64,000 nucleotides of DNA. Origin: Opitutaceae bacterium (GTDB taxonomy: Bacteria; Verrucomicrobiota; Verrucomicrobiia; Opitutales; Opitutaceae). The DNA lies in contig JAIXQE010000147.1 of assembly GCA_027485815.1 (NCBI GenBank), forward strand, positions 1 through 64,000. The letters run 5' to 3'. Under the pieces are notes generated by a model, which had not been told where the DNA came from, made no database searches, and saw only the letters and a program-made list of their open reading frames with translations. Made by a program: the position numbers and the translations under genes. Positions 10,968 through 27,472 of this stretch are shown piece after piece. Every line of letters begins with the position of its first letter. Positions within the stretch are counted from its first letter, which is position 1.

Positions 10968-11498
10968 TCAAGCGTGGAGATTGCCGCCGGGGGCAGGCAG
11001 GACCTCCTCGAGCTCGATCCGCAAAGGCTGGCCCGGGGCGCAATCCGCCCGGAGGGCGACGAAGCCGTCGCGGTGCCGGTCATAGATCGGCCAGAGCGCC
11101 TGCCGGTCGGTGTCGGGGATCGGGAGGGCGTCGATCGCGGCGCGGGAGAAGAAGGCGAAGCGGCCCTCGTCGATCGGCGGCGGGAGGGCGCGCAGCGGCA
11201 CCCGGCAGCGGAAGAGGAACATCAGCCAGTGGGCGTGGCCCTCGTAGGCCTTTTCCGCGATCATCGCGAACAGGTGGAAATCCCCCGTCGCGACCCGGTG
11301 GCCGGTTTCCTCGAAGGTTTCGCGGACCGCGCATTCAAAGGGGGATTCCCCGCGGGCGGTCTCGAGCTTGCCGCCGATCGGACTCCACACGCCGAGGTTC
11401 GGCGCCTTGGCCCGCAGCATCAGCAGCAGTTCCCCGGCCTCATTCTCGAGGAAGACCAGGACGGCGAGTTTGTGGGCCAGCGGGGCGGGAGAGGTCAT
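10968..11498 (-). CDS. NUDIX hydrolase
   Basis: Nudix box GGKLETARGESPFECAVRETFEETGH; ATG at 11498 internal to the track ORF. Confidence 0.88.
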   Translation of the reverse strand: MTSPAPLAHKLAVLVFLENEAGELLLMLRAKAPNLGVWSPIGGKLETARGESPFECAVRETFEETGHRVATGDFHLFAMIAEKAYEGHAHWLMFLFRCRVPLRALPPPIDEGRFAFFSRAAIDALPIPDTDRQALWPIYDRHRDGFVALRADCAPGQPLRIELEEVLPAPGGNLHA

Positions 11499-12156
11499 GA
11501 GCCGGGGAAAGTTTGAGCGTGACCCCGGGAAGGGAGCGCTCAACTTTTTTCCGGTGCTCCGCCTCGCCTGCGTTCTCGCCCTGACCGTCGCGCTCCCGTG
11601 GGCGGCGGCCGCTCCGGGCCCTGCGCCGGTGGTCGAGGTGGCTAATCTGCGCACGAACCAGGTGCGTCCGGGCAGCGGCGGCCCCGCCTGGCTCGAGACC
11701 ACGCTCGCGCTCAATGTGCGGCCGGCCGGCGGTGGTCCCTCGCCGGTGGTTTCGGCGGTCCGGGTCGCCCTCCTGATGGCCTTCGAGCTCCCGGGGCCGG
11801 CCGGCGGCGCCCGCCGCACCCAGGTCTACGCGGCCGCGGTGGAGTGCGTGGCCCTCGAACCGGGGCGGGCGGAGGTCCGTTTCTACCTGCCCCCGGAAAT
11901 CCTGAAGCGGGACCAGATTCGGGGAGACCCCAAGTTTTGGGGGGTGGAACTCACCGCGGCGGGGGAGGCGTTGCCCGCCGCGCGCACGGCCTATTCCGCC
12001 AACCTCGGCCCGCCCGCCGCGCGCGCGGAGTTTCAGCGCCGCTGGGCCGCGGCGGCCGCCGCCAACGACGGGATCCTCCAACCGCAGCACCTCACTCCGT
12101 TCGCCCTGGAGTACCCGCGGTCCACGCCCTCCGTGGTCCGTCGCGAGGCGCGCTGA
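11497..12156 (+). CDS. Secreted protein, candidate Amuc_1102-like pilus-associated protein (alternative GTG start at 11554)
   Basis: Signal peptide-like LRLACVLALTVALPWAAAA; beta-rich VVEVANLRTNQVRP...TTLALNVRP; first gene of the pilus-like operon by position. Assignment rests mainly on synteny. Confidence 0.6.
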   Translation: MSRGKFERDPGKGALNFFPVLRLACVLALTVALPWAAAAPGPAPVVEVANLRTNQVRPGSGGPAWLETTLALNVRPAGGGPSPVVSAVRVALLMAFELPGPAGGARRTQVYAAAVECVALEPGRAEVRFYLPPEILKRDQIRGDPKFWGVELTAAGEALPAARTAYSANLGPPAARAEFQRRWAAAAAANDGILQPQHLTPFALEYPRSTPSVVRREAR

Positions 12157-12230
12157 AGGTTCGCCGTAACCATAATACGCTTGCCGCGTCTCGCCCCATT
12201 TGAAATCGCCTTACTCCTTCTTGCCCAATT

Positions 12231-13973
12231 ATGCGCCCCCCCCGCATTCTCGCCGTTGACGTCGGCGCCGGCCATGTCGCCTGCGGGGTGTTTTCCGTCG
12301 GCGCGTCGGGCCGGCTGGTGCTGCAGCAGTTCGCGCTCGAACCGCACAGCCCCGACCCCGCCCACGACAGCCGCTGGTCGTTGGAAGTGGCGCAGTCGCT
12401 CGGCGCAATCGTGGCCCGTCGCCGCCTCGGGGGCCTCGCTGCCCTGGCGGTCCCTGGCCACCTCGCGCTGACCAAGTTCATCAAGACCCCCTCCGTCGCC
12501 AAGGAGAAGCGGGCCCGGATCGTGGCCTTCGAGGCCGCGGAGAACATACCCCACGCCCTCGAGGAGGTCGTGTGGGACCACGCCGTGATCGCGGATGACG
12601 GGTTTGACCTCGAGGTGCTCCTCACCGCGGTGAAGTTCGAGGCGATGCAGGCCCTCTGCTCGGCCGCCGATGCCGCCGGCTTTCCGGTCGAGCGGGCCAC
12701 CCCGGCCGGGGTCGCTCTCTACCACGCCTTCCGCCACACGCATCCGCAGCAGGCGGAGCCGGTCATCGTCGCCAACATCGGCGCGCGCACGACCACGCTG
12801 CTCTTCGCGGAAGGCGAGCGGTACTCCCTCCGCAGCCTGGGGCTGGCGGGCAACGCGGTGACGCAGGCGATCGCCGACGAGCTGCGGATCGACTTCGCCT
12901 CCGCGGAGACGCTCAAGCTGCAGGTGCTCACCGGCCAGGCCGACCTGCCGGCCGCCTCGCCCTCGCGGGCCGCGGTCCACCGCGCCACGGCCGCCTTCTG
13001 CGCGCGGCTGCAGCTTGAGATCACCCGCTCGGCGGTGAACCACCGCCGGCATACGGGCGCCAGCCCCGCGGTCGCGGTCTACCTGACCGGCGGCGGTTCG
13101 CTCCTGGCGGACCTGCCCGCGGTGCTCGCGGAGAAGCTTCGGTTACCCGTCGAGCGCCTCGAGGTGCTGCGCCAGGTCGACGTGGCCGCGGATGCCCGCG
13201 CGGGCGGGGCCGAGGCGGCGTCCGCCGTGCTCGCCGATCTGGTCGGGCTCGCCACGCGGCTGGTCAATCCCCGCGAGGAGGAGCCCAGCCTGCTGCCCCC
13301 GGCGCTCACCCGGGCGCTCGCCTTCCGGAAGCGCCAGCCGATGCTGCTCGCCGCGGCCGCCGCCGCGACCCTCGCGTTCGCACCGCCCGCCTATTACTTC
13401 CACCACGTCACCCGCGGCCTGCAGGAGCAGGTCTCCCGCTACGACGGCCAGCTGATGCCGCTGCGTTCGGTGCAAAATCGGAACGAGGGCAACCTCCGGC
13501 AGATCACCGAGGCCGGGCGGCAAATCGCCGCCCTCAAGGGAGCCTACGAGACGAAGGCCAACTGGGTGAACTTCCTCGCCGGGCTCCAGGAGCGACTCGT
13601 TCAGGTCGAGGACGTTTGGCTCGACCGCCTGCAGGTGCAGCGTCCACCCGTCGAGGAGACGGTCGCGGCCGACGTGCCCCCGCCCCCCGAGGAGCCGACG
13701 CCGGACGGCCAGGCCCCCGCTCCCGCGGCCGAGCCTCCGCCCGCACCCAAGGGTCCGCCCGTGCGCCTCGCCCTGAGCGGCCGGCTGCTCGACGTGAAGA
13801 ACCCGCAGTCGAAGGTCAGCCCGGAGTCGATCGAGCGCGTGAAGCGGCTGCTGGCGGGCTTCGCCGGTTCGCCGTTCGTGACCGCGGTGGAGAACGAGCG
13901 CTTCGACACCAGCCAGAACGGCATCCTGCGCTTTGATTTCACGCTGGTGATCAACCCGCGGCAGACCCTCTGA
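12231..13973 (+). CDS. PilM-like actin-fold protein with C-terminal TM and PilN-like periplasmic region (Amuc_1101-like)
   Basis: ILAVDVGAGHVACGVF, FIKTPSVAKEKRARIVAFEAAENIPHALEEVVWDH (PilM-like), then hydrophobic PMLLAAAAAATLAFAPPAYYF and PilN-like ANWVNFLAGLQERLVQVEDVWLDRLQV...VTAVENERFDTSQNGILRFDFTLVI. Confidence 0.85.
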   Translation: MRPPRILAVDVGAGHVACGVFSVGASGRLVLQQFALEPHSPDPAHDSRWSLEVAQSLGAIVARRRLGGLAALAVPGHLALTKFIKTPSVAKEKRARIVAFEAAENIPHALEEVVWDHAVIADDGFDLEVLLTAVKFEAMQALCSAADAAGFPVERATPAGVALYHAFRHTHPQQAEPVIVANIGARTTTLLFAEGERYSLRSLGLAGNAVTQAIADELRIDFASAETLKLQVLTGQADLPAASPSRAAVHRATAAFCARLQLEITRSAVNHRRHTGASPAVAVYLTGGGSLLADLPAVLAEKLRLPVERLEVLRQVDVAADARAGGAEAASAVLADLVGLATRLVNPREEEPSLLPPALTRALAFRKRQPMLLAAAAAATLAFAPPAYYFHHVTRGLQEQVSRYDGQLMPLRSVQNRNEGNLRQITEAGRQIAALKGAYETKANWVNFLAGLQERLVQVEDVWLDRLQVQRPPVEETVAADVPPPPEEPTPDGQAPAPAAEPPPAPKGPPVRLALSGRLLDVKNPQSKVSPESIERVKRLLAGFAGSPFVTAVENERFDTSQNGILRFDFTLVINPRQTL

Positions 13974-13984
13974 GCGCTCTCCCG

Positions 13985-15013
13985 ATGAACTGGTACCGTC
14001 ACTATCCGGGATTCGCGATCGGCCTCACCCTCTGCGGGCTGGTCGCTGCGGGGGAGATTGCGCTGGGCGTGGAGCGCTGGATGGCCTCCCGGGCGGAAAC
14101 CGTCCGGCTGCAGCAGCGCCGCGCCGAGCTCGAGGGGATGGGCCAGCTGAATCCCGCGCCCACCCGCGAGGTGGCGGCCGCGATCGAGGCCGACCTCGCC
14201 CGCGCCCAGGCCTCCCTGGCGGCGATGAAGGCGGAGCTTTCCGGCCAGCCGGCCGCCGGCGAGAAGTTGCGCGCGGCCAAGGTGCCCGCCGCCCGCACGG
14301 ACGCATTTTTCGACCTCGCGACCTACGTCGAGCGGGTGAAGGAGGCCGCCGCGAAGGCCGGCGTGCAGCTCCGTCCCGAGGCCGCCCGGGCCGGTTTCGC
14401 CCAGTACGCGAACGAGGGCCCCGAGACCGACCGCATCGAGCCCGTCTTCCGCCAGCGCCAGTTGGCGGAGCACTTGGTGACGCTGCTCCTCGAAGCCCGC
14501 CCCGAAGCGATCCTCGCGGTCCGGCGGGAGCGTCCCCGCACCAAGGCCGAGCGCGAGGCTGAGGCGCAGGCGATCGCCAATGGCCAGCCGCCGCCGGCGC
14601 CGGAGGGGGGCGACGGCCCGGACTTCTTCGCGCTGGATCCGCGGGGCAGCGCGCGGGTGCCGGGATTCGTGGAGACCACTGCCTTCCGCCTCACGTTTCA
14701 GGGCGAGACCGCGGCGCTGCGCCTCTTCCTCAACCGGCTGGCGGCCTTCGAACTGCCGTTCCTCGTGCGCGAGATCGAGGTGGAACCCGTGAGTGCGGAG
14801 GATGCGGCGGCGGACGCCCCCGGGGCGGCCCCGGCTCCGGTGGTGGCTTTGCCGAACGCCGCGCCGGCGATCCGCGAGGCCGCGCCAGCCAAGGCGCCCG
14901 CGCAGACCCCGCTCGTTCCGCGCTCCACCTCCCGCTTTACCGTCACGGTCGAGCACCTCGAGCTCCTCACGCCGCCGCCCGCCGAGGGCGCCGTCGAGGC
15001 GACCAACCCCTGA
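13985..15013 (+). CDS. Amuc_1100-like pilus-like protein (single N-terminal TM, coiled-coil, periplasmic domain)
   Basis: N-terminal TM FAIGLTLCGLVAAGEIALGVERW, then coiled coil; position between PilM/N-like gene and the Amuc_1099/secretin-like genes. Confidence 0.72.
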   Translation: MNWYRHYPGFAIGLTLCGLVAAGEIALGVERWMASRAETVRLQQRRAELEGMGQLNPAPTREVAAAIEADLARAQASLAAMKAELSGQPAAGEKLRAAKVPAARTDAFFDLATYVERVKEAAAKAGVQLRPEAARAGFAQYANEGPETDRIEPVFRQRQLAEHLVTLLLEARPEAILAVRRERPRTKAEREAEAQAIANGQPPPAPEGGDGPDFFALDPRGSARVPGFVETTAFRLTFQGETAALRLFLNRLAAFELPFLVREIEVEPVSAEDAAADAPGAAPAPVVALPNAAPAIREAAPAKAPAQTPLVPRSTSRFTVTVEHLELLTPPPAEGAVEATNP

Positions 15014-15030
15014 CCCGGAATCCCCTCCGC

Positions 15031-15903
15031 ATGGCCGCCCTCCCCAGCGAAAAGACTTACCTCGGCCTCGCCCTGCTCGTTGTCGCCGGCTCCGCGGCCG
15101 GTTTCGGTTCCCTGGTTCTCCGGCAGGAGCACGCGGACGCGGTACCCTTGCCGGCCGTGCAGTTGAGCGAGGAGCCCTACGCGCCGAAGGCCGTCGCCGC
15201 GGCGCCCGTGAAGGTCGAGGCTTGGCCGGCCCCGGCCCCGCAGTCCCGGGGACGCGAGTGGGTCTATGACGCGTTTTCGCCCCCGGAGATCTACTACAAC
15301 GGCCGCTCGCGCCAGTTCTCGGTCAAGCCGCCCGCCAGCTTGGTGGAAGGCGATGCCGCCGAGCCCTTCGGCTTGGAACTGGTCGCCGTGCGCCCGGAGC
15401 CCTTCCGGTTGCAGCTGATCGGCTACGTCGGCGCCGCGGGCAATTGGCGGGGCACGTTCCAGAACACACGCACCGGCGAGGTCTTTCTGGCCGCGGCCGG
15501 GCGCCGGCTGCCGACCCTAGGGCTCACCATCCGGAGTCTGGACGTCGGGACCCAGCCGGTCACGGTGGCCGAGAGCATGACCACCCGCCAGCGGGTCGCC
15601 ACCGCCGTGGTGCGCGATGAGCAGGCCGGGCGCGACGTCACGCTCACGCACCGCGAGCGCGTCTACACGGGCACCCTCTTCGCCTTCGTGGCGGCGCCCG
15701 GGCAGTCCGCGACCCGCGAGGTCCGCGTGGGCGACTCCTTCAAGCAGGGGGAGGCGAGTTACCGGATCGAGAAGATCGAGTCGACCCCGCCCTCAGTCGA
15801 GGTGGTGAAGGAGGCGGCCACGCTGCCCCAGCCTGACCGCCGGATTCTGCTGCCGCGTGAAGCCGAGACCCCCGAGGAGGGGACGCCCGCGCCGACCTCC
15901 TGA
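15031..15903 (+). CDS. Amuc_1099-like pilus-like system protein (periplasmic)
   Basis: N-terminal TM LGLALLVVAGSAAGFGSLVL, REWVYDAFSPPEIYYNG; position upstream of secretin gene. Confidence 0.72.
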   Translation: MAALPSEKTYLGLALLVVAGSAAGFGSLVLRQEHADAVPLPAVQLSEEPYAPKAVAAAPVKVEAWPAPAPQSRGREWVYDAFSPPEIYYNGRSRQFSVKPPASLVEGDAAEPFGLELVAVRPEPFRLQLIGYVGAAGNWRGTFQNTRTGEVFLAAAGRRLPTLGLTIRSLDVGTQPVTVAESMTTRQRVATAVVRDEQAGRDVTLTHRERVYTGTLFAFVAAPGQSATREVRVGDSFKQGEASYRIEKIESTPPSVEVVKEAATLPQPDRRILLPREAETPEEGTPAPTS

Positions 15904-15931
15904 AATGCCCCGCCGCCCCTTTCCTTTCGCA

Positions 15932-18700
15932 ATGAATACCCGCCCCGTCCCCGTGTCCCTGTTCGTCGCGCTGGCCGCCGCCCTCTGCTGCTCGGCCCCC
16001 GTCGCGCGCGATGTCCGGGCGCAAACCCCCACGGACACGAAGATCCGCCTGATGGCCGAGGCGCTCCGCGCGCGTGACGCGGGGGACCTGACCGCCGCCC
16101 AGGAGGCCCTGACGCGGCTCGCGGCGCTCAGCCCCGACGACCGCGCGGTGCAACGACTCCGGGCGGAGGTCGAGGCGCAGGCTCGCGCCCGTCCGTCCGC
16201 CGCCGCGGCCCCGGCGCCCGCCCGGCCGGCCCCGGCGATGGTGGAGGTGCGGATCCCGGACCCCGCCCAGCCGGCGGCGCCGGCCGCTCCGAGTGCCGAG
16301 CAGGAAGCGGAGGCCCTGGCCCGCGCGGAGACCGCCCGGCTGGAACAACTCGTCGCCACCGCCCAGACCCAGCTTTCCACCGCCCGGACGCAGGCCCGCG
16401 GCGGCCGCTACGAGGAGGCGATCACCACCGTGGATGCCGCGCTCGCGGCGCTGCCCGCCAATCCGGTCACGCAGAAGGTGGCCGGCGACCTCCGCGCCGA
16501 AAAGGCTTCCGCCCTGCTCGACCGCGCCCAGGCCCTGGTCCGCGGCGGTGACATCGCGGGCGCCCGGGCCGCGATGATTGCCCACGACCAGCTTGCGAGC
16601 CCGAACGCCCGGGCCGCCGGGATCGAACGGCAGATCGCGCGCGCCGAGACCCGGCCGCTGGCCGCCGGCGTCGATCCCGCCTTCGTTTCCGACCGCGCCG
16701 CCACCGCGCAGCTCATCGCCAAGGGCCGGGCCCAGTACGTCGCCGGCGACCTCGACGGCGCGCAGGAGACCTTCCGCGGCATCGAGGCGCAGGAGCCGGA
16801 CAACACCGTGGCGAAGGGCTTCCTCCTCCGGATCGCCGAGGAGAAGACCGAGATGGGCGCGCTCAACCGCGAGAAGACCCGCGCCCAGCTGCTCGAGGAA
16901 GTCTCGAAGAGCTGGCAGCGTCCCGGCATCTATCAGGAACGTCCCCGCGAGGCGGATCGCGCCGCCGCCGTCGGCCCGCTCGCCCAGAAGCTGTCCCAGA
17001 TCACCCTCCCGGCGGTCAGCTGGACCCGCGCCCCGATCGGTGACGTGGTTGCCGCCCTGAGCGCGATCTCCGAGGAGTTCGACAACACGGGCACCCCGGG
17101 CGCCAAGGGCGTCAACGTGGTCCTGATCGACACCAGCAACAAGAATCCCCTCGTCACGCTCACCCTCCGCAACGCCACGCTGAAGCGCGTGCTCGACTTC
17201 GTCACCGAGGCCGTCGGCTACCAGTACGAGGTTCAGGCCGACGCGGTGGTGGTCCGCCCGGGCGGCGAGACCACGACGCTGGAAACCCAGTTCTTCCCGG
17301 TCACCCGGGCCACCGTGCTCCGGATGACCGGCATCGCCGGCGCGGTTTCCGCCAGCGCCTCCCGCGAGGGTGGGGCGGCAGGTGAGGGCGAGGCCGCCGC
17401 GCCGGGCGGAGAGGCCGCCGCGATGAAGGCCTTCCTGCAGCAGGCGGGCGTGAGCTTCACCGTCGAGGGCAGTTCGCTGGCCTATGACGGCTCGGCGATC
17501 CTCGTCACGCAGACCGCGCGCAACAATGAGCGGATCCGCAACATCCTCGCCCGCTACAACGACGTCCGTCAGGTCGAGATCGAGGCCAAGTTCATGGAGG
17601 TGCAGGAAGGTGCGCTCGAGGAGCTCGGCGTCACCTGGAATCTGAACCGCCGCGGCATCGCCCGGGTCAACCCGAACACCGGTGCCCCGGTGCTCGACGT
17701 GAACGGCCGCCAGATTTTCGACCCGCAGGAGACCTACACCAGCGCCGGGGTCACCCGCCCCCTGGTCAGCGCCTTCCCCAGCACCTCGAACGCCAACGCC
17801 CTCGTGATCAAGGATCCGGCCATCTCGCTGTCGGAGACGGATCCGAACCAGACCCAAGGCCAACTGCGGGTTCCGGTGTCGCCGACGGGCGTCCCGGGCA
17901 GCGTGCAGCTGGCGGCCACGGCCAACGCGCTGGCGAACATCGTCGGCTTCGTGGGCGAGTTCGACGTCAGCGCCGCGGTCCGCGCCCTCTCGCAAAAGCA
18001 GGGCACCGACCTGCTCAGCTCGCCGAAGCTGACGGTCCTCTCGGGCAACCCGGCCAACATCACGGTCGCGCAGGAACTGCGCTATCCGCAGAGCTACGGT
18101 GAAATCCAGAGCCAGGTCGGCACCGGCGCGGTCGCCGGCGGCGCGGCCGGCGTGACGATCACCGCCGGCACGCCGCAGGAGTTCACCGCCCGCAACGTGG
18201 GCGTGGAGCTCAAGGTCACCCCGACCGTCGAGGAGGACGATTACAGCATCAGCCTGGACCTGAACCCGCGCGTCACCGAGTTCGAGGGCTTCGTCGAGTA
18301 CGGCGGGCCCAGCGTGGCGATCTCCGGCACGACCACGGTCACAGTGCCCCCGGGCTTCTACCAGCCGATCTTCTCGGTGCGCGACATCTCGACCAAGGTG
18401 ACCATCTGGGACGGCGCCACGCTCGTGATGGGCGGACTGACCCGTGAGGAAGTGAAGAAGGTCAACGACAAGATTCCCTTCTTCGGCGACCTCCCTCTCG
18501 TCGGCCGGCTCTTCCGCTCGAAGGGCGAGAGCGCGCAGAAGCGCAACCTGCTGATCTTCGTGACTGCCAACCTGGTCAGCCCGGGTGGCTCGCCCAAGAA
18601 GCAGAATCTCAAAAGCACCCCGGCGAACTCGCTCTTCCAGAACCCGACGATCGTGACCCCGGCCAGCGCCGAGCCGCGCACCCGCAGCGGCGCGAAGTAA
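15932..18700 (+). CDS. Type II/IV secretin family outer-membrane protein (Amuc_1098/PilQ-like) with N-terminal TPR-like region
   Basis: Signal peptide; TPR-like repeats; STN/N-domain NVVLIDTSNKNPLVTLTLRNATLKRVLDFVTEAVGYQYE; secretin core DLLSSPKLTVLSGNPANITVAQELRYPQSY...TLVMGGLTREEVKKVNDKIPFFGDLPLVGRLFRSKGESAQKRNLLIFVTANLV. Start could be 15905. Confidence 0.92.
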   Translation: MNTRPVPVSLFVALAAALCCSAPVARDVRAQTPTDTKIRLMAEALRARDAGDLTAAQEALTRLAALSPDDRAVQRLRAEVEAQARARPSAAAAPAPARPAPAMVEVRIPDPAQPAAPAAPSAEQEAEALARAETARLEQLVATAQTQLSTARTQARGGRYEEAITTVDAALAALPANPVTQKVAGDLRAEKASALLDRAQALVRGGDIAGARAAMIAHDQLASPNARAAGIERQIARAETRPLAAGVDPAFVSDRAATAQLIAKGRAQYVAGDLDGAQETFRGIEAQEPDNTVAKGFLLRIAEEKTEMGALNREKTRAQLLEEVSKSWQRPGIYQERPREADRAAAVGPLAQKLSQITLPAVSWTRAPIGDVVAALSAISEEFDNTGTPGAKGVNVVLIDTSNKNPLVTLTLRNATLKRVLDFVTEAVGYQYEVQADAVVVRPGGETTTLETQFFPVTRATVLRMTGIAGAVSASASREGGAAGEGEAAAPGGEAAAMKAFLQQAGVSFTVEGSSLAYDGSAILVTQTARNNERIRNILARYNDVRQVEIEAKFMEVQEGALEELGVTWNLNRRGIARVNPNTGAPVLDVNGRQIFDPQETYTSAGVTRPLVSAFPSTSNANALVIKDPAISLSETDPNQTQGQLRVPVSPTGVPGSVQLAATANALANIVGFVGEFDVSAAVRALSQKQGTDLLSSPKLTVLSGNPANITVAQELRYPQSYGEIQSQVGTGAVAGGAAGVTITAGTPQEFTARNVGVELKVTPTVEEDDYSISLDLNPRVTEFEGFVEYGGPSVAISGTTTVTVPPGFYQPIFSVRDISTKVTIWDGATLVMGGLTREEVKKVNDKIPFFGDLPLVGRLFRSKGESAQKRNLLIFVTANLVSPGGSPKKQNLKSTPANSLFQNPTIVTPASAEPRTRSGAK

Positions 18701-18718
18701 ACCGCCCCGCCGCCCGCC

Positions 18719-21700
18719 ATGCCTCCCTCCTTCCGCCGCGTCTCGTCGGTGCTGGCCGGCCTCGCCGCGCTGGCCGCCGTCCCCGGTGCGCTCGGCACGC
18801 CGACGATTTCCTTCACCCCGGGGGCCTTCCCGGCGACCGGCTCCCCGGCCGGCGTGGTCAGCACCCCGGCCGGGCTGGTCATCAGCGTCAACGCCTCGCC
18901 AACCGCCGGGGCCTCGATCGTCGGGGTCGTCGTTTCCGTGAACGGAACGAACATCGGCACCGCCACCGGCTCCTCGCCGTTCACGGTGCCCTGGTTCCCG
19001 AGCGTCGCCGGCACCTACACGATCTCCGCCACGGTGACGGATACCTCCGCCAACTCCACGGGCGCCGGAGCCTCGGTGAACAACGCGACCGCCTCCAGCA
19101 TCGTCACCCTTGGTGCCGCCCGCTCCGCCCAAGTCCTTGCCCCCGCGAGCGGTGGTTCCCTCGTGCTGGGATCGCGCGTCTTCCTGCGCTCCTCCGCGGC
19201 CCTTTCCGACGGCGTGGTGACGCAGGTGGAGTTCATCCTGGATGCCGGCACCGCCAGTGAGGCGGTCCTCGCGACGGCCCTGCAGCCGCCCTACAATGTT
19301 TCGTACCCCGTGAGCGGCCTGACTCCCGGGGCGCACACCCTGACGGCCCGCGCGACCGCCAACACCGGCGGCGGCCTCACCGTCTTTGATTCCCCGGCGG
19401 TCACGTTCAACGTCGTCTCCGCCGTCGGCTTCCCGCCCACGGTCAGCATCAGCGCTCCGGCCGCCGGTTCGTTCGTCGCCACCAGCACGGCCGTCACCCT
19501 CACCGCCACCGCGGCGGACGGGGATGGCTTCATTCCCAGTTCGACGGGCGGCGGCGTCACCTTCTTCGCCGATGGCGAGCCGGTCGGCACGGACCTCACC
19601 GCGCCGTATTCGGTCACCTGGACCCCGTCGGTGGCCAAGAGCTATTCCCTGGTTGCCCAGGCCGTGGATGATCGCGGCAACGTGGGCCAGTCCGCCTCCG
19701 TCGCCGTCAGCGCCGTCGCCTCGCTGCCCACGGTCACCGTTTCGGCGCCGGCCACGGCCACCGCCGGCACCGCTGCCACCCTCACCGCCACGGCCACGGG
19801 CAGCACGGGCGCCACGGTCACCCAGGTCCAATTCCTCGTGAACGGTGCGCCGCTCGGCGGCCCGCTGCTCGCCGCGCCCTACAGCGTGGTTTGGACCCCC
19901 GCGGTGCTGGGGACGAACGCGATCACGGCCCAGGTCACGGACAGCGCCGGCATCACGGCCACCTCCGCGCCCGCCAACGTGACCGTCTCCACCGCGAGCG
20001 GCACCGCGGTCAGCCTCCTCGCGCCGACCAACGGCGCGACGCTGCCGCAGGGCTCGCAGGTGTTCCTGCGCGCCACGGCGGCCATCGCCGGCAGCATCGT
20101 GAGCCGCGTGGATTATTACCTGGACGGGGTCGCCCTGCCGGGCGCTTCTGCGAACCAGTCCCCGTACAACTTTGCCTACTCGGTGACCGCGGCGCCCGGG
20201 GCGCACACGTTGTTCGCCCGGGCGGTGGCCAGTGACGGCGCGACCGTCGATTCGGCGACCGCGGCCTTCACGGTGGTCCCGCCGGTCGGCACGGCGCCGA
20301 CGGTCTCCCTCACCGCGCCGGTCTCCGGTACCTTCGTCGCCACCGGCAGCTCGGTCTCGCTGACCGCCGTGGCCTCCGATGCCGACGGCTTCATCTCGCC
20401 GAACGCCGGCGGCGGCGTGACGTTCTTCGCCGACGGGGATCCGATCGGCAGCGATCTGGTGGCGCCCTACGCCACGACGTGGACTCCGACGGTGGCCAAG
20501 GCCTACTCGCTGCGGGCGCAGACGGTGGACGACAAGGGGAACGTGACCCTGTCGGCCCCGGTGACGGTGACCGCGCTGGCGGCGCTGCCCACGGTGGCGC
20601 TGGCCTCGCCTCCGTCGGTCGCGACGGTGGGAGCACCGGTGAGCTTGACCGCGACGGCGAACGCCAGTCCCGGTGCCTCGGTGACCTCGGTGGTGTTCCT
20701 CGCCAACGGGGCGCCGATCGGTGCGCCGGCGCTGGTCGCTCCCTACACGGTCTCGTGGACGCCGGCCGCGACCGGCGCGATCTCGCTGACCGCCCAGGTG
20801 ACGGATTCCGCCGGAGCCGTGATCACTTCCAGTGCGTCCTCGGTGACGGTGGGCTCGGCCTCGGCCACCGTCGCCCTGATCGCGCCGGCCACCGGTTCGG
20901 TGGTCCCGCTGGGTTCCCCGATCGACGTCACCGCCACCGCGGGGGCCTCTGCGCCCGGGGCCTCCGTGGCCAGCGTGCAGTTCCTCGCCGGGAGCTCCGT
21001 CATCGGCACAGTCACCGTGCCTTCGGGGGGAGTGTACTCGGTCAAGTGGACGCCGACGGCGGGTAACACCACGCTCACCGCGCGGGTCACCGACACCCTG
21101 GGCAGCACGGTCACGTCCTCGGGTGTCACGGTCACCGGCGTCGCCCAGACTGCGGTGACCCTCACCGCCCCCGCGACCAGCGCCTCCGCCACGCTGGGGG
21201 TGCCGTTCACCCTCACCGCTTCCGCCTCCGCCACTCCCGGGACGGTCGTCACGAGGGTTGAGTTCTTCGCGGGCGCCACCTCCCTCGGGGTGGTCACGAG
21301 CGCCCCCTTCACGCTCCCGTGGACTCCCGCAGCGGTGGGTACGTTCGCCATCAAGGCGCAGGTCACCGACTCGGCCGGCACCCAGGCGGACTCCGCCGCG
21401 GTCAATGTCACCGTGGGCCAGTCCTCCTCCGCCTTTGTCGCGGTCACGAGTCCCGTTCCCGGTGCGGTGGTCACGGTGGGGGTGCCCACGGATGTGACGG
21501 CCACGGCTTCCGCGCCCACGCCGGGCGCGATTGTCAGCCAGGTCCAGTTCCTCGCTGGCACGACGGTCATCGGCACGGTGGCGACCCCGACGGCCGGCGT
21601 TTACGCGGTGAAGTGGACCCCCACGGCGGGCAACACGACGCTGACGGCCCGGGTGACCGACACCTTGGGCGCGACCGCCACCTCCTCCGGCGTGACGGTC

Positions 21701-24700
21701 ACCGGGGTCGTTGCCACCAGCGTTTCGCTGACCGCTCCCGCCAACAACGCCACCGCCGTCGTCGGCACCGCCGTCAATCTGACCGCCTCCGCCGCCGCCA
21801 CCGCGGGCGCGGTGATCACGCAGGTGGAATTCCTGGCCGGGGGCGTGTCGGTCGGCACCGTCACCGCGGCTCCATTCACCCTCCCGTGGACTCCCGCCAC
21901 GTCCGGACCGACCGCCCTTACGGCGCGGGCCACCGATTCCTTCGGCGCCGTGATCACAGCGACCGCGGTGAACGTGACGGTCAATCCGGCTCCCCCGACG
22001 ATCGTCATCACCAGCCCCACTCCCGGCAACCAGCTCAATGCGGGCTCCCCGGTGCCCGTCACGGCCACGGTGAACCCCGGCTCCGCCGGCGCCGCCATCA
22101 CGCGGGTCCAGTTTCTCGCGGGCAGCACGGTCGTCTCCACGGTCCCCGGGGATCCCACCACCACGACCTACACGGGCACGTGGACGCCGGCGTCCGCGGG
22201 CGACTTCAATCTCAGCGCGCGGGTCACCGACGCCAATGGCACCGTGGTCACCTCGGCCGTGGTCAATGTGACCGTCGTGACCGTGAGCACCCAGGTGGTC
22301 ATCACGAGCCCGGTCGCCGGTGGCGCCCAGGTTGGCACCCCGCTGGTCTTCAGCGCTAACGTGGATGCGGCACCCGGCGTGAGCATCACCCAGGTGCAGT
22401 TCCTGGCTGGCTCCACGGTGGTCGCCACGCTGCCCGGCAACGCCGCCGCCACGAGCTACAGCACCACGTGGACCCCCACCGCCGCCGGCTCCTACAGCCT
22501 CACGGTGCGGACCACGGACTCCAACGGGGTCGTGCGGAACTCGCCGGCGATCCAGGTCGTGGCCCAGGCCACCACGGTCAGCCTCTCGCTGCTGCCCAAC
22601 AACCCCAGCATCGCGGTGAACTCCTCCCGGATGATCAGCGCGAGCGCCTCCGCGCCGGCGGGGGTCGCCTCGGTGGAGTTCTACTACGTGGGCGCCTCGG
22701 GCATCACGCTGATCGGCACCGACACCGCGCCGCCCTACAACATCCTCTTCACCGCGCCTAATGAACCCGGGCGCCGCGTGCTGCGGGCCCGCGCGTACGA
22801 CATCCTGGGGGGCTCGGTCGACTCCGCGGACTTCACGATCAACCTCACCGGCCAGATCGGGGAACCCCCGGTGCTCGGCATCCTCACCCCGGTGAGCGGT
22901 TCGTTCGTCGCCGCCAACAACACCACGACCATCTCCGGTACCGCGACCGACGCCGACGGCTCGATCAGCAGCATCCAGGTGTTCGTCAACGGCACCACCG
23001 CCGGTCTCGGCGGCGCGGGCGTGACCGGCGTCACCAACGGCGTCTGGTCCGTCAGTTGGACGCCGACGTCCTCGGGGGTCGCCTCGATCTCCGCCATCGC
23101 GACCGACAACGCGGGCAACTCCGTCGCCGCGCCGGCCGTGGGCGTGAACATTTCGGACAGCACGTCCCCGCTCATCAACCTGACCCTTTCCCCGCGCACC
23201 GCCGCGGCGGCCGCCAGCACGACGCTCCCCAGCGGGGCGGTGCGCACGCTGGTGGCGGATGTGGCCGCCTCCTCCGGCCGCGCCGTGGTCCGGGTCGAGT
23301 TCTTCGTCGATGGCACCAAGGTCGGCGAGGATACCACCGCCCCCTTCACGCACCGCTACACCGCCCCGGCCCTCGCCGCGGGCGAACTCTCGCGGCCGTA
23401 CGTCCTCTCCGCCCGCGCCACCGACAACGCCGGCACCGCCCGCGACGTCCAGGTTTCCGTGCTGGTCATCTCGCCGGTCGGCGCGCCGCCCACGGTGAAC
23501 CTCCTGACGCCGGCAAACGGCGCCTCCACCACGCCAGGTTCCGCCATCAGCCTCGCGGCCACGGCCACCTCCATCGACAGCACGGTGGCGAACGTCCAGT
23601 TCTACGTGAATGGCAGCCCCGCCTCGGTCAACGGCGGCAACGGGCTCACCGGCGCGCCGTACGTCACCACGTTCGTGCCCACCTTGCCGGGCGCGTATGT
23701 GATCGATGCGATTGCAACCGACGCCCGCGGCAACACCGCGGTCTCGAACTCCGTGACGATCTCGGCCGCCCTACCGGTGCCGACGATCGTCTTCACCGCC
23801 CCCAATCCCAACGCCACGGCCCGCGCGACCCCGGGGGTGCCCCTCACGCTCGCGGCCACCCCGTCCGTCCTCGGGGGCGGCGCGCAGTTCCTCCTCGTGG
23901 AATTCCTCCTCGACGGCGTCCAGATCGGGGCGGACACGACCGCCCCGTACACCTTCTCGTGGATCCCGACCGCCGCCCAGCTCGGCGAACGCGTCCTCAC
24001 CGCGCGGGTCACGGACCTGAACGCGCAGGTGGTCACCTCGGCGCCCCTCACCGTCAACGTCGCCAACGTGGTCGGGTCGCCCCCGACCGTCACGGTGTCC
24101 GCCTCGCCCATCCCCGGCAACGGGCTCCAGACCGCCTCGACCGTGAACTTCCAGGCCACCGCGGTTGCCACTGGCACCGGCTCCACCCTCCGCAACGTCG
24201 AGATCTTCCTCAACGACGTCAGCATCGGCCTCGCGACGCGGGAGCAGACCACGAACTTCTACCGGCGGGCCTTCGATCTCAGCCAGTTCGACTTCAGCAC
24301 GATCACGCCGACCATCAACGAGAGCACCGGCGCGGTGACCTACCCGGTCCGGCTCTACGCGATCGCCCGGGACAGCAACAACAACCAGACGGTCTCGCCG
24401 ACGGTCAACCTGACCATCTTCCCGGCCACCAGTGCTCCGCCGACGATCCAGGTGCAGGCGCTGACCCCCGCGAACATCACCGCGGGCACGCAGTTCTTCC
24501 TGCAGGCGAACCTCAACGACCCGGACGGCAACGTCAGCACGGTCCAGCTCTACGCCAACGGCAGCCTGGTCGGGAATTTCCCGAATCCGCAGCAGGGCCA
24601 GCTCCTCACCTACACCGCCAACACGGCGGGTCGCTTCAACCTCTACGCGGTCGCCACCGACGAGACCGGCAACACCGCGGTCTCCAGCCCCTCGATCGTG

Positions 24701-27472
24701 ATCAACGTCACGGCCGTCACCGCGCCCACGACGGCCATCACCCGGCCCGAGGACAACACCACCGCCACGACCGTCGGCGCCCCGGTTTTCCTCGAGGGCA
24801 CGGCCGTCAATGCCGTGACGACCCAGGTGCCGACCCTCCAGTTCATCGCCACCTCGGCCGGCGGCGCGCGCCAGGTGATCACCGGCACCCGCGTCGGCAC
24901 GACCACCAGCTACCGCGCGATCTGGACCCCCGCCAACCCGGACACGTACACCATCACGACCCAGGCCTCCGTCGGCAACGTTCAGGGCACGAGCACGACC
25001 TCGCGCCGGGTCGTCGTGAGCGACGTCGTGGGCCTCGCCCCGACGATCACGCTGACCCGCTCGCCGGGTGTGCTAGGCTATCCGACCTCGGCGCAGACTG
25101 CCTCGTCCGCGGACTTCGCCGCCACCGCCCAGGACCCCGATGGTGCGGTCGTCGCCGTCGAGTTCTTCCTCAATCGCTTCAGCATCGGTCAGGCCCGCCG
25201 GGATCCCCAGGGCAACACGTGGCGCCTGCAGGCCGCATTTGCCGGGCTCCAGCCCGGGGCCACCGAAGTGGTCGCCCTCGGGCGCGACAGCTCCGGCAAC
25301 GTCGTCGCTTCGGCCACGGGTTCCATCAACGTGACCGCCGCCGCCAGCATCGCTCCCTCGATCACGATCACCCCCTCGACAACCAATCCCGCGTTCAATC
25401 GTCAGGTGCAGCTCCGCGCCAACGCCCGGGACACCGACGGCACGGTGACGAACGTCCAGTACTTCGCCAACGCCCTGCCCATCACCTCCTCGACCAACTC
25501 GGGGTCCCTTTTCCTCTCGAATTGGACGCCCGCGGCTGAGGGCAAGTACCTCCTCTGGGCGCTGGCCACCGACAGTTCTGGCATCACCACGGTTTCGCCC
25601 ACCGTCGAGCTCAACGTCCGCCGCAACAATCCCGTCCTCGAGAACGCGGCCTTCATCCTGCAAACCTACCAGGACATCGCGAACACGACCAACATCAACC
25701 CGCTGGTGTTTGACGACCTCGACGAGCGGCTCGGGTCCGGCGCGCTCACCCGCGCCGACTTCGTCGCCTCGCTCCTCGACCAGCCCGGGTTTCTCGCCCC
25801 GGTCCAGTTCCTCGCGACCTACCAGGTCCTGATGGGGCGCTGGCCGACGCCGCAGGACTACACGAACTTCCTCGCCGTCGCCCGTGGCGGCCTGGGCAAC
25901 GCCGTCGGCGCGGTCCTCGCTGCCAACGATTACTTCGCCAAGTACGGGACCGTGCCCACCAACGCGCTGCTCAACAGCCCGACGAGCGCCATCCCGGCAC
26001 GCACCTTCCTCGATCGCCTTTGGGCCAACGCCGCCTCCAGCCCGTCGACCAACCGGGAGACCGATTTGGTCCGTTTCATGAGCAACAACGTGCTCAGCAC
26101 GAACATCGGTCGCGGCTACAATGTGATCGGCCTCAACCAGGCCATCGCCGAGTTCGTGGTGAACACGAATGCGGCGAACACCGCCCTCTGGAACCGGGCC
26201 CGGGCCGCGGCGATCTTCTATCAGCTCGCCCGCCCGCCCGTGACCGTGACCTACGAGGAGATCACGGCCCGCGTCGATGCCCTGCTGCGCTTGCCCGACA
26301 CCAAGGCGATCGTCGACGCCGTCCTGAAGGACGAGCTCTACGGCTACCGCTACGTCACCATTACCAAGCACCCGCAGTCGCTGGTGGTGGCGCCGCGCTC
26401 CGGCGCGATCTTCTCGGTCGAGGCCCAGGGTGCTCCCCCGCTGGTTTACCAGTGGCTCCTCAACGGTGCCCCGATCCCCGGCGCCACCAGCCCCGTGCTC
26501 AGCCTCACCAACGTCGACACCAGCCGCGTCGGCACCTACACGGCGGTCATCACCTCCGCCGCGGGGGTCGCGACTTCGGACCCCGCGACGCTCACGCTGT
26601 CCAACGTCACCACCCGACTCGCGAACATCTCGACCCGCGGCCAGACCTCGGCGGGGGCGAACGTGCTCATCGGCGGCTTCGTGGTGAACGCCCCGGCTGG
26701 CCAGACCCGCCAGATGCTGATCCGGGTGGTCGGCCCGACGCTCTCCGGCGCGCCCTTCAACCTGGCGAACACCCTGAACAACCCGGCGCTCGCCCTCTAT
26801 GTCGGCACCAACCAGAGCCCGGTGCTGACGAACGACGACTGGGGTACGCAGGCCGCCGGCGCCGCGCAGGTGCAGGCGATCCAGCAGGCGACCACCCGCG
26901 CTGCCGCGTTCGCCCTCCAGCCCAATTCCCGCGACGCCGCGATCCTCGCCACGCTCCCCGCCGGCCCGTACACGGTGCAGGCCCAGATCGGCCCGGGTTC
27001 CACCAACGCCGCCGGGCTCGTGCTGATCGAGGTCTACGACGTCACCCAAGGCGGCCCCGCGGCCCCCAAGGCGATCAATGTCTCCACCCGCGGCGCCGTC
27101 GGCACGGGGGCCAATTCCCTCATCGCCGGCTTCGTGGTCACGGGCCAGGTCTCCCGGCGGATGCTGATCCGCGGCGCGGGTCCGACCCTCGCCAACCTCG
27201 GGGTCCCCGGCGTGCTGGCCGATCCGATCCTGACGCTCTCCGCGCAATCCACCGGCCAGGTCCTCCGGACCAACGATAACTGGGGAACGGGTGACGAAGC
27301 GTCCATCATCGCCAGCGCGGCCTCCGCCGCGGGCGCCTTCCCGTTCCCGGCCGGCAGCCGCGACGCGGCGATGATCGTGATGCTGCCCCCCGGGGCCTAC
27401 ACCGTCCAACTGGCCGGCGTAGGCGGCGGCACTGGGGTCGGCATCGTCGAAGTCTACGACGTCGATCCCTGA
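18719..27472 (+). CDS. Giant secreted Ig-like repeat protein (2917 aa): about 23 bacterial Ig-like repeats, DUF4214-like helical region, one Ig domain, two C-terminal ISTRG/GGFVV repeats
   Basis: Signal peptide-like N-terminus; repeated VxFxxxGxxxG...Y.vxWTP...a.vtDs.G units; helical DUF4214-like region; HPQSLVVAPRSGAIFSVEAQGAPPLVYQWLLNGAPIPGATSPVLSLTNV Ig domain; duplicated ANISTRGQTSAGANVLIGGFVV / INVSTRGAVGTGANSLIAGFVV. Confidence 0.93.
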   Translation: MPPSFRRVSSVLAGLAALAAVPGALGTPTISFTPGAFPATGSPAGVVSTPAGLVISVNASPTAGASIVGVVVSVNGTNIGTATGSSPFTVPWFPSVAGTYTISATVTDTSANSTGAGASVNNATASSIVTLGAARSAQVLAPASGGSLVLGSRVFLRSSAALSDGVVTQVEFILDAGTASEAVLATALQPPYNVSYPVSGLTPGAHTLTARATANTGGGLTVFDSPAVTFNVVSAVGFPPTVSISAPAAGSFVATSTAVTLTATAADGDGFIPSSTGGGVTFFADGEPVGTDLTAPYSVTWTPSVAKSYSLVAQAVDDRGNVGQSASVAVSAVASLPTVTVSAPATATAGTAATLTATATGSTGATVTQVQFLVNGAPLGGPLLAAPYSVVWTPAVLGTNAITAQVTDSAGITATSAPANVTVSTASGTAVSLLAPTNGATLPQGSQVFLRATAAIAGSIVSRVDYYLDGVALPGASANQSPYNFAYSVTAAPGAHTLFARAVASDGATVDSATAAFTVVPPVGTAPTVSLTAPVSGTFVATGSSVSLTAVASDADGFISPNAGGGVTFFADGDPIGSDLVAPYATTWTPTVAKAYSLRAQTVDDKGNVTLSAPVTVTALAALPTVALASPPSVATVGAPVSLTATANASPGASVTSVVFLANGAPIGAPALVAPYTVSWTPAATGAISLTAQVTDSAGAVITSSASSVTVGSASATVALIAPATGSVVPLGSPIDVTATAGASAPGASVASVQFLAGSSVIGTVTVPSGGVYSVKWTPTAGNTTLTARVTDTLGSTVTSSGVTVTGVAQTAVTLTAPATSASATLGVPFTLTASASATPGTVVTRVEFFAGATSLGVVTSAPFTLPWTPAAVGTFAIKAQVTDSAGTQADSAAVNVTVGQSSSAFVAVTSPVPGAVVTVGVPTDVTATASAPTPGAIVSQVQFLAGTTVIGTVATPTAGVYAVKWTPTAGNTTLTARVTDTLGATATSSGVTVTGVVATSVSLTAPANNATAVVGTAVNLTASAAATAGAVITQVEFLAGGVSVGTVTAAPFTLPWTPATSGPTALTARATDSFGAVITATAVNVTVNPAPPTIVITSPTPGNQLNAGSPVPVTATVNPGSAGAAITRVQFLAGSTVVSTVPGDPTTTTYTGTWTPASAGDFNLSARVTDANGTVVTSAVVNVTVVTVSTQVVITSPVAGGAQVGTPLVFSANVDAAPGVSITQVQFLAGSTVVATLPGNAAATSYSTTWTPTAAGSYSLTVRTTDSNGVVRNSPAIQVVAQATTVSLSLLPNNPSIAVNSSRMISASASAPAGVASVEFYYVGASGITLIGTDTAPPYNILFTAPNEPGRRVLRARAYDILGGSVDSADFTINLTGQIGEPPVLGILTPVSGSFVAANNTTTISGTATDADGSISSIQVFVNGTTAGLGGAGVTGVTNGVWSVSWTPTSSGVASISAIATDNAGNSVAAPAVGVNISDSTSPLINLTLSPRTAAAAASTTLPSGAVRTLVADVAASSGRAVVRVEFFVDGTKVGEDTTAPFTHRYTAPALAAGELSRPYVLSARATDNAGTARDVQVSVLVISPVGAPPTVNLLTPANGASTTPGSAISLAATATSIDSTVANVQFYVNGSPASVNGGNGLTGAPYVTTFVPTLPGAYVIDAIATDARGNTAVSNSVTISAALPVPTIVFTAPNPNATARATPGVPLTLAATPSVLGGGAQFLLVEFLLDGVQIGADTTAPYTFSWIPTAAQLGERVLTARVTDLNAQVVTSAPLTVNVANVVGSPPTVTVSASPIPGNGLQTASTVNFQATAVATGTGSTLRNVEIFLNDVSIGLATREQTTNFYRRAFDLSQFDFSTITPTINESTGAVTYPVRLYAIARDSNNNQTVSPTVNLTIFPATSAPPTIQVQALTPANITAGTQFFLQANLNDPDGNVSTVQLYANGSLVGNFPNPQQGQLLTYTANTAGRFNLYAVATDETGNTAVSSPSIVINVTAVTAPTTAITRPEDNTTATTVGAPVFLEGTAVNAVTTQVPTLQFIATSAGGARQVITGTRVGTTTSYRAIWTPANPDTYTITTQASVGNVQGTSTTSRRVVVSDVVGLAPTITLTRSPGVLGYPTSAQTASSADFAATAQDPDGAVVAVEFFLNRFSIGQARRDPQGNTWRLQAAFAGLQPGATEVVALGRDSSGNVVASATGSINVTAAASIAPSITITPSTTNPAFNRQVQLRANARDTDGTVTNVQYFANALPITSSTNSGSLFLSNWTPAAEGKYLLWALATDSSGITTVSPTVELNVRRNNPVLENAAFILQTYQDIANTTNINPLVFDDLDERLGSGALTRADFVASLLDQPGFLAPVQFLATYQVLMGRWPTPQDYTNFLAVARGGLGNAVGAVLAANDYFAKYGTVPTNALLNSPTSAIPARTFLDRLWANAASSPSTNRETDLVRFMSNNVLSTNIGRGYNVIGLNQAIAEFVVNTNAANTALWNRARAAAIFYQLARPPVTVTYEEITARVDALLRLPDTKAIVDAVLKDELYGYRYVTITKHPQSLVVAPRSGAIFSVEAQGAPPLVYQWLLNGAPIPGATSPVLSLTNVDTSRVGTYTAVITSAAGVATSDPATLTLSNVTTRLANISTRGQTSAGANVLIGGFVVNAPAGQTRQMLIRVVGPTLSGAPFNLANTLNNPALALYVGTNQSPVLTNDDWGTQAAGAAQVQAIQQATTRAAAFALQPNSRDAAILATLPAGPYTVQAQIGPGSTNAAGLVLIEVYDVTQGGPAAPKAINVSTRGAVGTGANSLIAGFVVTGQVSRRMLIRGAGPTLANLGVPGVLADPILTLSAQSTGQVLRTNDNWGTGDEASIIASAASAAGAFPFPAGSRDAAMIVMLPPGAYTVQLAGVGGGTGVGIVEVYDVDP
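19118..20863 (+). repeat. Higher-order repeat: two copies of a three-domain (A-B-C) Ig block
   Basis: 19118-19999 and 20000-20863: B units GGGVTFFADGEPVGTDLTAPYSVTWTPSVAKSYSLVAQAVDDRGNV vs GGGVTFFADGDPIGSDLVAPYATTWTPTVAKAYSLRAQTVDDKGNV; A units SRVFLRSSAA..PGAHTLTARA vs SQVFLRATAA..PGAHTLFARA. Confidence 0.88.
20864..21991 (+). repeat. Higher-order repeat: two copies of a two-domain Ig block, each 188 codons
   Basis: 20864-21427 and 21428-21991: both contain VKWTPTAGNTTLTARVTDTLG[SA]T[VA]TSSGVTVTGV followed by a unit containing APFTLPWTP. Confidence 0.88.
26620..27472 (+). repeat. Two C-terminal ISTRG...EVYDV repeat domains of the giant protein
   Basis: ISTRGQTSAGANVLIGGFVV...VVGPTL...NDDWGT...SRDAAILATLPAGPYTVQ...LIEVYDV and VSTRGAVGTGANSLIAGFVV...GAGPTL...NDNWGT...SRDAAMIVMLPPGAYTVQ...IVEVYDV. 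Confidence 0.9.

Follow-up and report, generated by a model that had tools for sequence, protein, structure and literature searches.

The window, a stretch of 64,000 nucleotides from contig JAIXQE010000147.1 of an Opitutaceae bacterium, carries six open reading frames (ORFs) on one strand between positions 11497 and 27472, separated in order by 74, 11, 17, 28 and 18 nt (Table 1). These genes, designated P1 to P4, the secretin and the giant, lie as described in the initial annotation, which had noted five same-strand genes followed, 18 nt past the secretin stop, by a giant signal-peptide protein.

Table 1. Features of the secretin-giant locus, in window coordinates.
Feature	Position	Strand	Evidence or remark
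Divergent Nudix-like gene at 5' edge	10968..11498	-	Nudix assignment by eye
P1, small secreted protein, Amuc_1102 position	11497..12156	+	kept 5' of P2 in relatives
P2, PilM/PilN fusion-like (Amuc_1101-like) inner-membrane platform protein	12231..13973	+	HMM, PF11104, 3jc8
P3, Amuc_1100-like, PilO position	13985..15013	+	NF038287, Amuc_1100 structures
P4, Amuc_1099 position/PilP-like position, one N-terminal TM	15031..15903	+	hhalign
Secretin, PilQ/GspD type, N-terminal TPRs, Amuc_1098-like	15932..18700	+	NF042912, PF00263, PDB secretins
Spacer, secretin stop to giant start, 18 nt	18701..18718	+	
Giant, 2917 aa, signal peptide, ~22 Big_7 Ig domains	18719..27472	+	
HEL domain of giant, aa 2296-2545, all-helical, DUF4214/phycobilisome-linker superfamily	25604..26353	+	
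Ig_3 domain of giant	26354..26608	+	PF13927
Two tandem CTD repeats of giant, aa 2636-2917, uncatalogued beta-sandwich	26624..27469	+	

Because the divergent Nudix-like gene begins at 11498 and so overlaps the annotated P1 start, the true start of P1 probably lies some 40-60 nt further in (about 11536-11554); in relatives, too, a Nudix-like gene is repeatedly found next to the 5' end of the operon. For the secretin, 15932 is the most likely start, and a GTG lies upstream at 15857. Neither a terminator-like nor a promoter-like site was found in the 18-nt spacer, the promoter scan being uninformative for a GC-rich genome. An antisense open frame of 2537 aa (15740-23353, minus strand) that runs over the secretin and the giant is spurious, a by-product of the high GC content.

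Identity of the operon genes

Three of the genes are recognized by family models. P2 scores 298.7 bits against Amuc_1101_fam (NCBIfam equivalog cut-off 650), also matches PilM as well as PF11104 (Pfam), and has a profile that matches the PilM of the Myxococcus pilus machine (3jc8, E 1e-16). P3 scores 77.8 bits against the Amuc_1100 family NF038287 (equivalog cut-off 180), and its profile matches the Amuc_1100 structures 6lad, 6kny and 6laf (E 6e-8 to 7e-7). The secretin scores 416.8 bits against the Amuc_1098 family NF042912 (equivalog cut-off 750) and 121 bits against PF00263, and matches PDB secretins. P1 and P4 found no match in the NCBIfam search. P4 is recognizable by profile comparison with position-matched genes of non-Opitutales loci, one of them Akkermansia-like (hhalign probability 98.8%); the corresponding values for P3 and P2 against position-matched genes outside Opitutales are 99.8% and 100%, and the cross-controls gave 5% and 48%.

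The resemblance to the Akkermansia Amuc_1102-1101-1100-1099-1098 locus proposed in the initial annotation is thus upheld, in homology and order, for four of five genes (the counterparts of Amuc_1101, Amuc_1100, Amuc_1099 and Amuc_1098), by HMM, profile and PDB matches. P1 is co-linear with Amuc_1102, but the similarity is not significant (hhalign probability 1.5%). The search with the Amuc family models that it had suggested recovered P2, P3 and the secretin and left P1 and P4 unmatched; every window score lies under its curated cut-off, placing these proteins outside the Amuc_1098-1102 equivalog families. The locus nevertheless contains the secretin and PilM-N-O-P-Q alignment complex characteristic of type IVa pili, the PilO and PilP roles resting on position together with the Amuc_1100 and Amuc_1099 matches.

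The remaining pilus machinery

Genome-wide family searches located eight T2SSE places and five secretins. None of the hits to the T2SSE ATPase, A24 peptidase and N_methyl pilin models fell on the window contig, in agreement with the initial annotation, which had noted the absence of PilB/PilT-type ATPase, prepilin peptidase and pilin genes from the window. That absence had been attributed either to an ATPase-less system or to genes elsewhere, and the latter proved correct. A PilB-PilT-PilB-PilC cluster adjoins rho on contig C63, which has no secretin; an A24 prepilin peptidase is encoded on C75; and N_methyl pilins occur on C31, C46, C101, C142 and C232, with 17 N_methyl sites in the genome. 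The PilB, PilT, PilC, prepilin peptidase and pilins of a type IVa system are therefore all encoded somewhere in the genome, and an ATPase-less system is rejected. Contig C31 combines a secretin with T2SSE and N_methyl genes; the window contig, by contrast, lacks the GspE and pseudopilin genes that accompany the secretin in type II secretion systems. Secretin operons that lack an ATPase could naturally draw on the C63 motor cluster, and the window operon may be one of them. The stretch 11497-18700 is best read as the PilM/N-O-P-Q section of a putative type IVa pilus system whose genes are split across the genome.

Coding status and domains of the giant protein

An ortholog has exactly the same length of 2917 aa, with 93% identity and a dN/dS of 0.07 (purifying selection), ruling out the giant as an ORF artefact. 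Its C-terminal Ig, CTD and HEL parts are under tighter constraint than the Big_7 region, and in a close relative with a 98%-identical secretin the giant is shorter by exactly 189 aa, or about two repeats, in the Ig region. Pfam recognizes 22 Big_7 stretches and the single Ig_3 domain; with a signal peptide (judged from sequence) the protein has the features of a Big_7 Ig-repeat surface protein, and its cysteine count is zero. The PilY1 domain PF05567 is absent from the giant, and a genome search for it gave no match, but control genomes were equally silent.

The HEL domain is predicted with confidence to adopt an all-helical fold (AF2 pLDDT 91.9), and its profile matches the ApcE linker domain (E 1.2e-6), with marginal support from Foldseek. 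The giant had initially been called DUF4214-like: membership of the superfamily holds, while the Pfam model (PF13946) does not match the window giant; the more distant secretin-linked giants L118 and L090 pass the DUF4214 cut-off. HEL was found on no plasmid and, in the searches made, in no other protein of this genome. An internal duplication was rejected, as a profile comparison of the HEL halves was not significant, and so was an RsaA-like LPS anchor, the fold match being non-significant (E 1.9).

This domain could point to an S-layer- or sheath-like envelope scaffold that HEL would fix to the cell surface around the gate of the pilus. The superfamily of HEL is that of the linkers in phycobilisome scaffolds, and DUF4214 has been described, in segmented filamentous bacteria, as a domain that probably anchors proteins at the surface (PMC12780176). 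We nevertheless consider such a scaffold quite improbable, given that a variable repeat number would be unlike an S-layer lattice protein and that the comparison with RsaA found no significant fold match.

The two CTD repeats, which share the pattern NLSTRG...LIGGFVV...GPxL...NDNW...YTVQ...EVYD, are matched by neither Pfam nor NCBIfam. They are predicted to fold as beta-sandwiches (AF2 pLDDT 86.5) and match a ColG tandem collagen-binding domain in Foldseek (E 1.7e-7, with a poor global TM-score). About 45 further open frames in this genome have the same C-terminal region, and this very common domain looks like a sorting or anchoring domain. Its presence on so many proteins suggests a general export route and disfavors dedicated export of the giant by this secretin.

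Conservation of the secretin-giant linkage

We surveyed about 150 distinct loci around secretin homologs, using a codon-based gene caller (start codons are approximate). Within the window's secretin clade (34 rows), a Big_7 giant is the next gene in all 31 rows with downstream DNA, so that the recurrence in relatives which the initial annotation had suggested surveying is complete here. The gap is mostly 18-26 nt by the ATG. Some giants are cut by contig ends; the complete ones range from 1503 to 3409 aa, with 8-28 repeats, and each contains one HEL domain and, except for L107 (no CTD), two CTDs. Distances between HEL domains are correlated with those between the secretins (Mantel r 0.70). One genome (G017) has two secretin-giant units, L101 (C24) and L079 (C3); it is listed with 7% contamination, and two strains are possible.

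Outside this clade, linked giants of varying domain content are found in Opitutales at L248, L131, the L171/L175/L181/L250/L251 group, L205, L118, L121 and L090. Those of L118 (9651-13340) and L090 (9678-14081) belong to other families and end in a tryptophan-rich tail of GWIY/WxW type instead of a CTD. The linkage is patchy here, with at least 9 changes on the tree, gain and loss being indistinguishable, and none of 33 non-Opitutales loci, two of them of Akkermansia type (assigned by Amuc_1098 scores), has a Big_7 giant next to the secretin. In loci without the giant, the secretin is often followed by an exonuclease-like gene (MAKWLLVDGFN...); at several linked loci a gene of this type comes directly after the giant, an arrangement that looks like an insertion of the giant between secretin and exonuclease-like gene. 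At L088 a HEL-bearing protein of 2109 aa (11184-17513) is encoded three genes 3' of the secretin, past the exonuclease-like gene.

These comparisons bear on whether the giant has any physical link to the pilus. It is possible, if doubtful, that the giant leaves the cell by a general route that depends on the CTD, and that its co-transcription with the pilus genes serves shared regulation only. The abundance of CTDs genome-wide would fit this, and the CTD-less L107 giant and the different ends of linked giants from other families imply that the C-terminus is interchangeable; against it, the searches made found HEL in no other protein of this genome, and no complete giant of the clade lacks it, which points to a role specific to the system.

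A second secretin-giant pair in the genome

Contig C142 (L074, G000:C142, 3323-14789) encodes a second, different PilQ-type secretin of 591 aa behind four small genes, followed after a spacer of again 18 nt by a 2316-aa Big_7 protein with two CTDs and no HEL; two pilin-like genes lie nearby on the opposite strand. A long open frame follows the C142-type secretin in 18 of the 19 relatives with a readable next gene; these frames bear Big_7 or resemble the N-terminus of the C142 giant, and the loci end inside the gene, short of its full length. A whole-genome search found only two Big_7 proteins, those of the window and C142, each 18 nt after a PilQ-type secretin, and the remaining three secretins (C31, C30, C32) have no Big_7 neighbor.

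That secretin and giant are adjacent without functional meaning is highly improbable. The linkage is indeed missing in many Opitutales and beyond, but it is conserved throughout the window's clade, recurs at a second secretin and involves both Big_7 proteins of the genome, the chance of both pairings under random gene order being about 2e-6 (a rough estimate, which leaves aside that the two arrangements may share an ancestor). On the strength of the clade conservation and the recurrence at C142 we reject it.

Co-occurrence of giant and secretin

Among 95 relatives, strong HEL matches are confined to genomes with this secretin, save for an 80%-complete draft (G026). HEL is missing from G005, G006, G015 and G022, four members of the genus in which the secretin is absent as well, while two genus relatives (G002, G004) keep the secretin in the absence of giant and HEL, indicating that the giant is unneeded for the machine as such. 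The association has a Fisher p of 0.017 as found and 0.004 once two giants cut by contig ends are counted, the genomes being related and the tests hence not independent in either case. In nine genomes HEL and secretin are on separate contigs; the readable secretin contigs of these end inside or before the giant, and the separation most plausibly reflects assembly breaks in repeats.

A dedicated, type II-like secretion apparatus, with the giant as cargo passing through the secretin channel, appears unlikely in this light. Such an apparatus would account for the tight linkage at two different secretins, and secretins also serve type II systems, the one in the window fitting GspD about as well as PilQ. 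The operon, however, comes without a dedicated ATPase or pseudopilins, the same C-terminal domains are found on many frames elsewhere, and relatives retain the secretin without the giant. Of the initial proposal that the giant is the adhesin or cargo of the apparatus, the tie to the apparatus has gained support from conservation, the second secretin and co-occurrence; export as cargo is disfavored by the common CTD and the secretin-only relatives.

Discussion

We favor, with somewhat better than even confidence, the giant as a surface adhesin or fiber of the pilus system, co-encoded with the secretin operon. The operon (11497-18700) would provide a type IVa pilus with its gate and alignment complex; motors, platform protein, prepilin peptidase and pilins are encoded in other regions of the genome. 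In the window lineage the giant is a constant extra member of the operon, probably co-transcribed with the secretin. It would be exported by Sec, and combines a long stalk of Ig repeats, variable in number, with a helical domain resembling linkers and with beta-sandwich modules at the C-terminus. Being produced along with the gate, it would be displayed on cells that are building the pilus machine, where it may act in adhesion. The giant may be in physical contact with the secretin or the pilus, and the C63 motors may be those that serve the operon.

The Amuc_1098-1102 locus is of wide interest, as Amuc_1100 acts on the host, yet the role of the apparatus in Verrucomicrobia is poorly understood; the conserved giant tied to the gate offers a concrete, testable partner for the pilus apparatus. 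That a single genome has such a giant at two of its secretins points to a pairing that is general among Opitutaceae. The Opitutales are a mostly aquatic group of Verrucomicrobia, and we tentatively envisage, as a speculation more than an expectation, a class of pili in this order in which each PilQ-type secretin has its own co-encoded giant Ig fiber, a gate-plus-fiber organelle new to description, of which the window type would be HEL-attached. Searches of the literature available found no report of the secretin-giant linkage.

Known systems resemble different parts of the locus. The adhesins known from type IV pili, PilY1 among them, have their genes alongside those of minor pilins. SiiE and LapA-type giant adhesins, which are type I secretion substrates, resemble the giant in having a very long repeat stalk that lacks cysteine and varies in repeat number; unlike in these adhesins, its signal peptide and location in a secretin operon would point to another route. 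The all-helical HEL domain, with its match to the ApcE linker, is akin to the DUF4214/phycobilisome linker superfamily, yet escapes the Pfam model of DUF4214 proper. The PilMNOPQ genes of Proteobacteria and Myxococcus are paralleled in the window by PilM-like, PilO-position, PilP-position and secretin genes in the same order, with PilB, PilT and PilC elsewhere; to our knowledge those operons end with pilQ and include no giant Ig protein. In Akkermansia muciniphila, Amuc_1098-1102 form a pilus-associated gene cluster, and Amuc_1098 is an abundant outer-membrane PilQ (PMC5332112, PMC4960237). The window shares the order and homology of the Amuc_1101, Amuc_1100, Amuc_1099 and Amuc_1098 counterparts, although its proteins score well under the equivalog cut-offs of those families and the Akkermansia-like loci (L215, L216) have no giant after the secretin. 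We conclude that the apparatus itself is a divergent representative of a known type of system, and that its new part is the constant giant partner.
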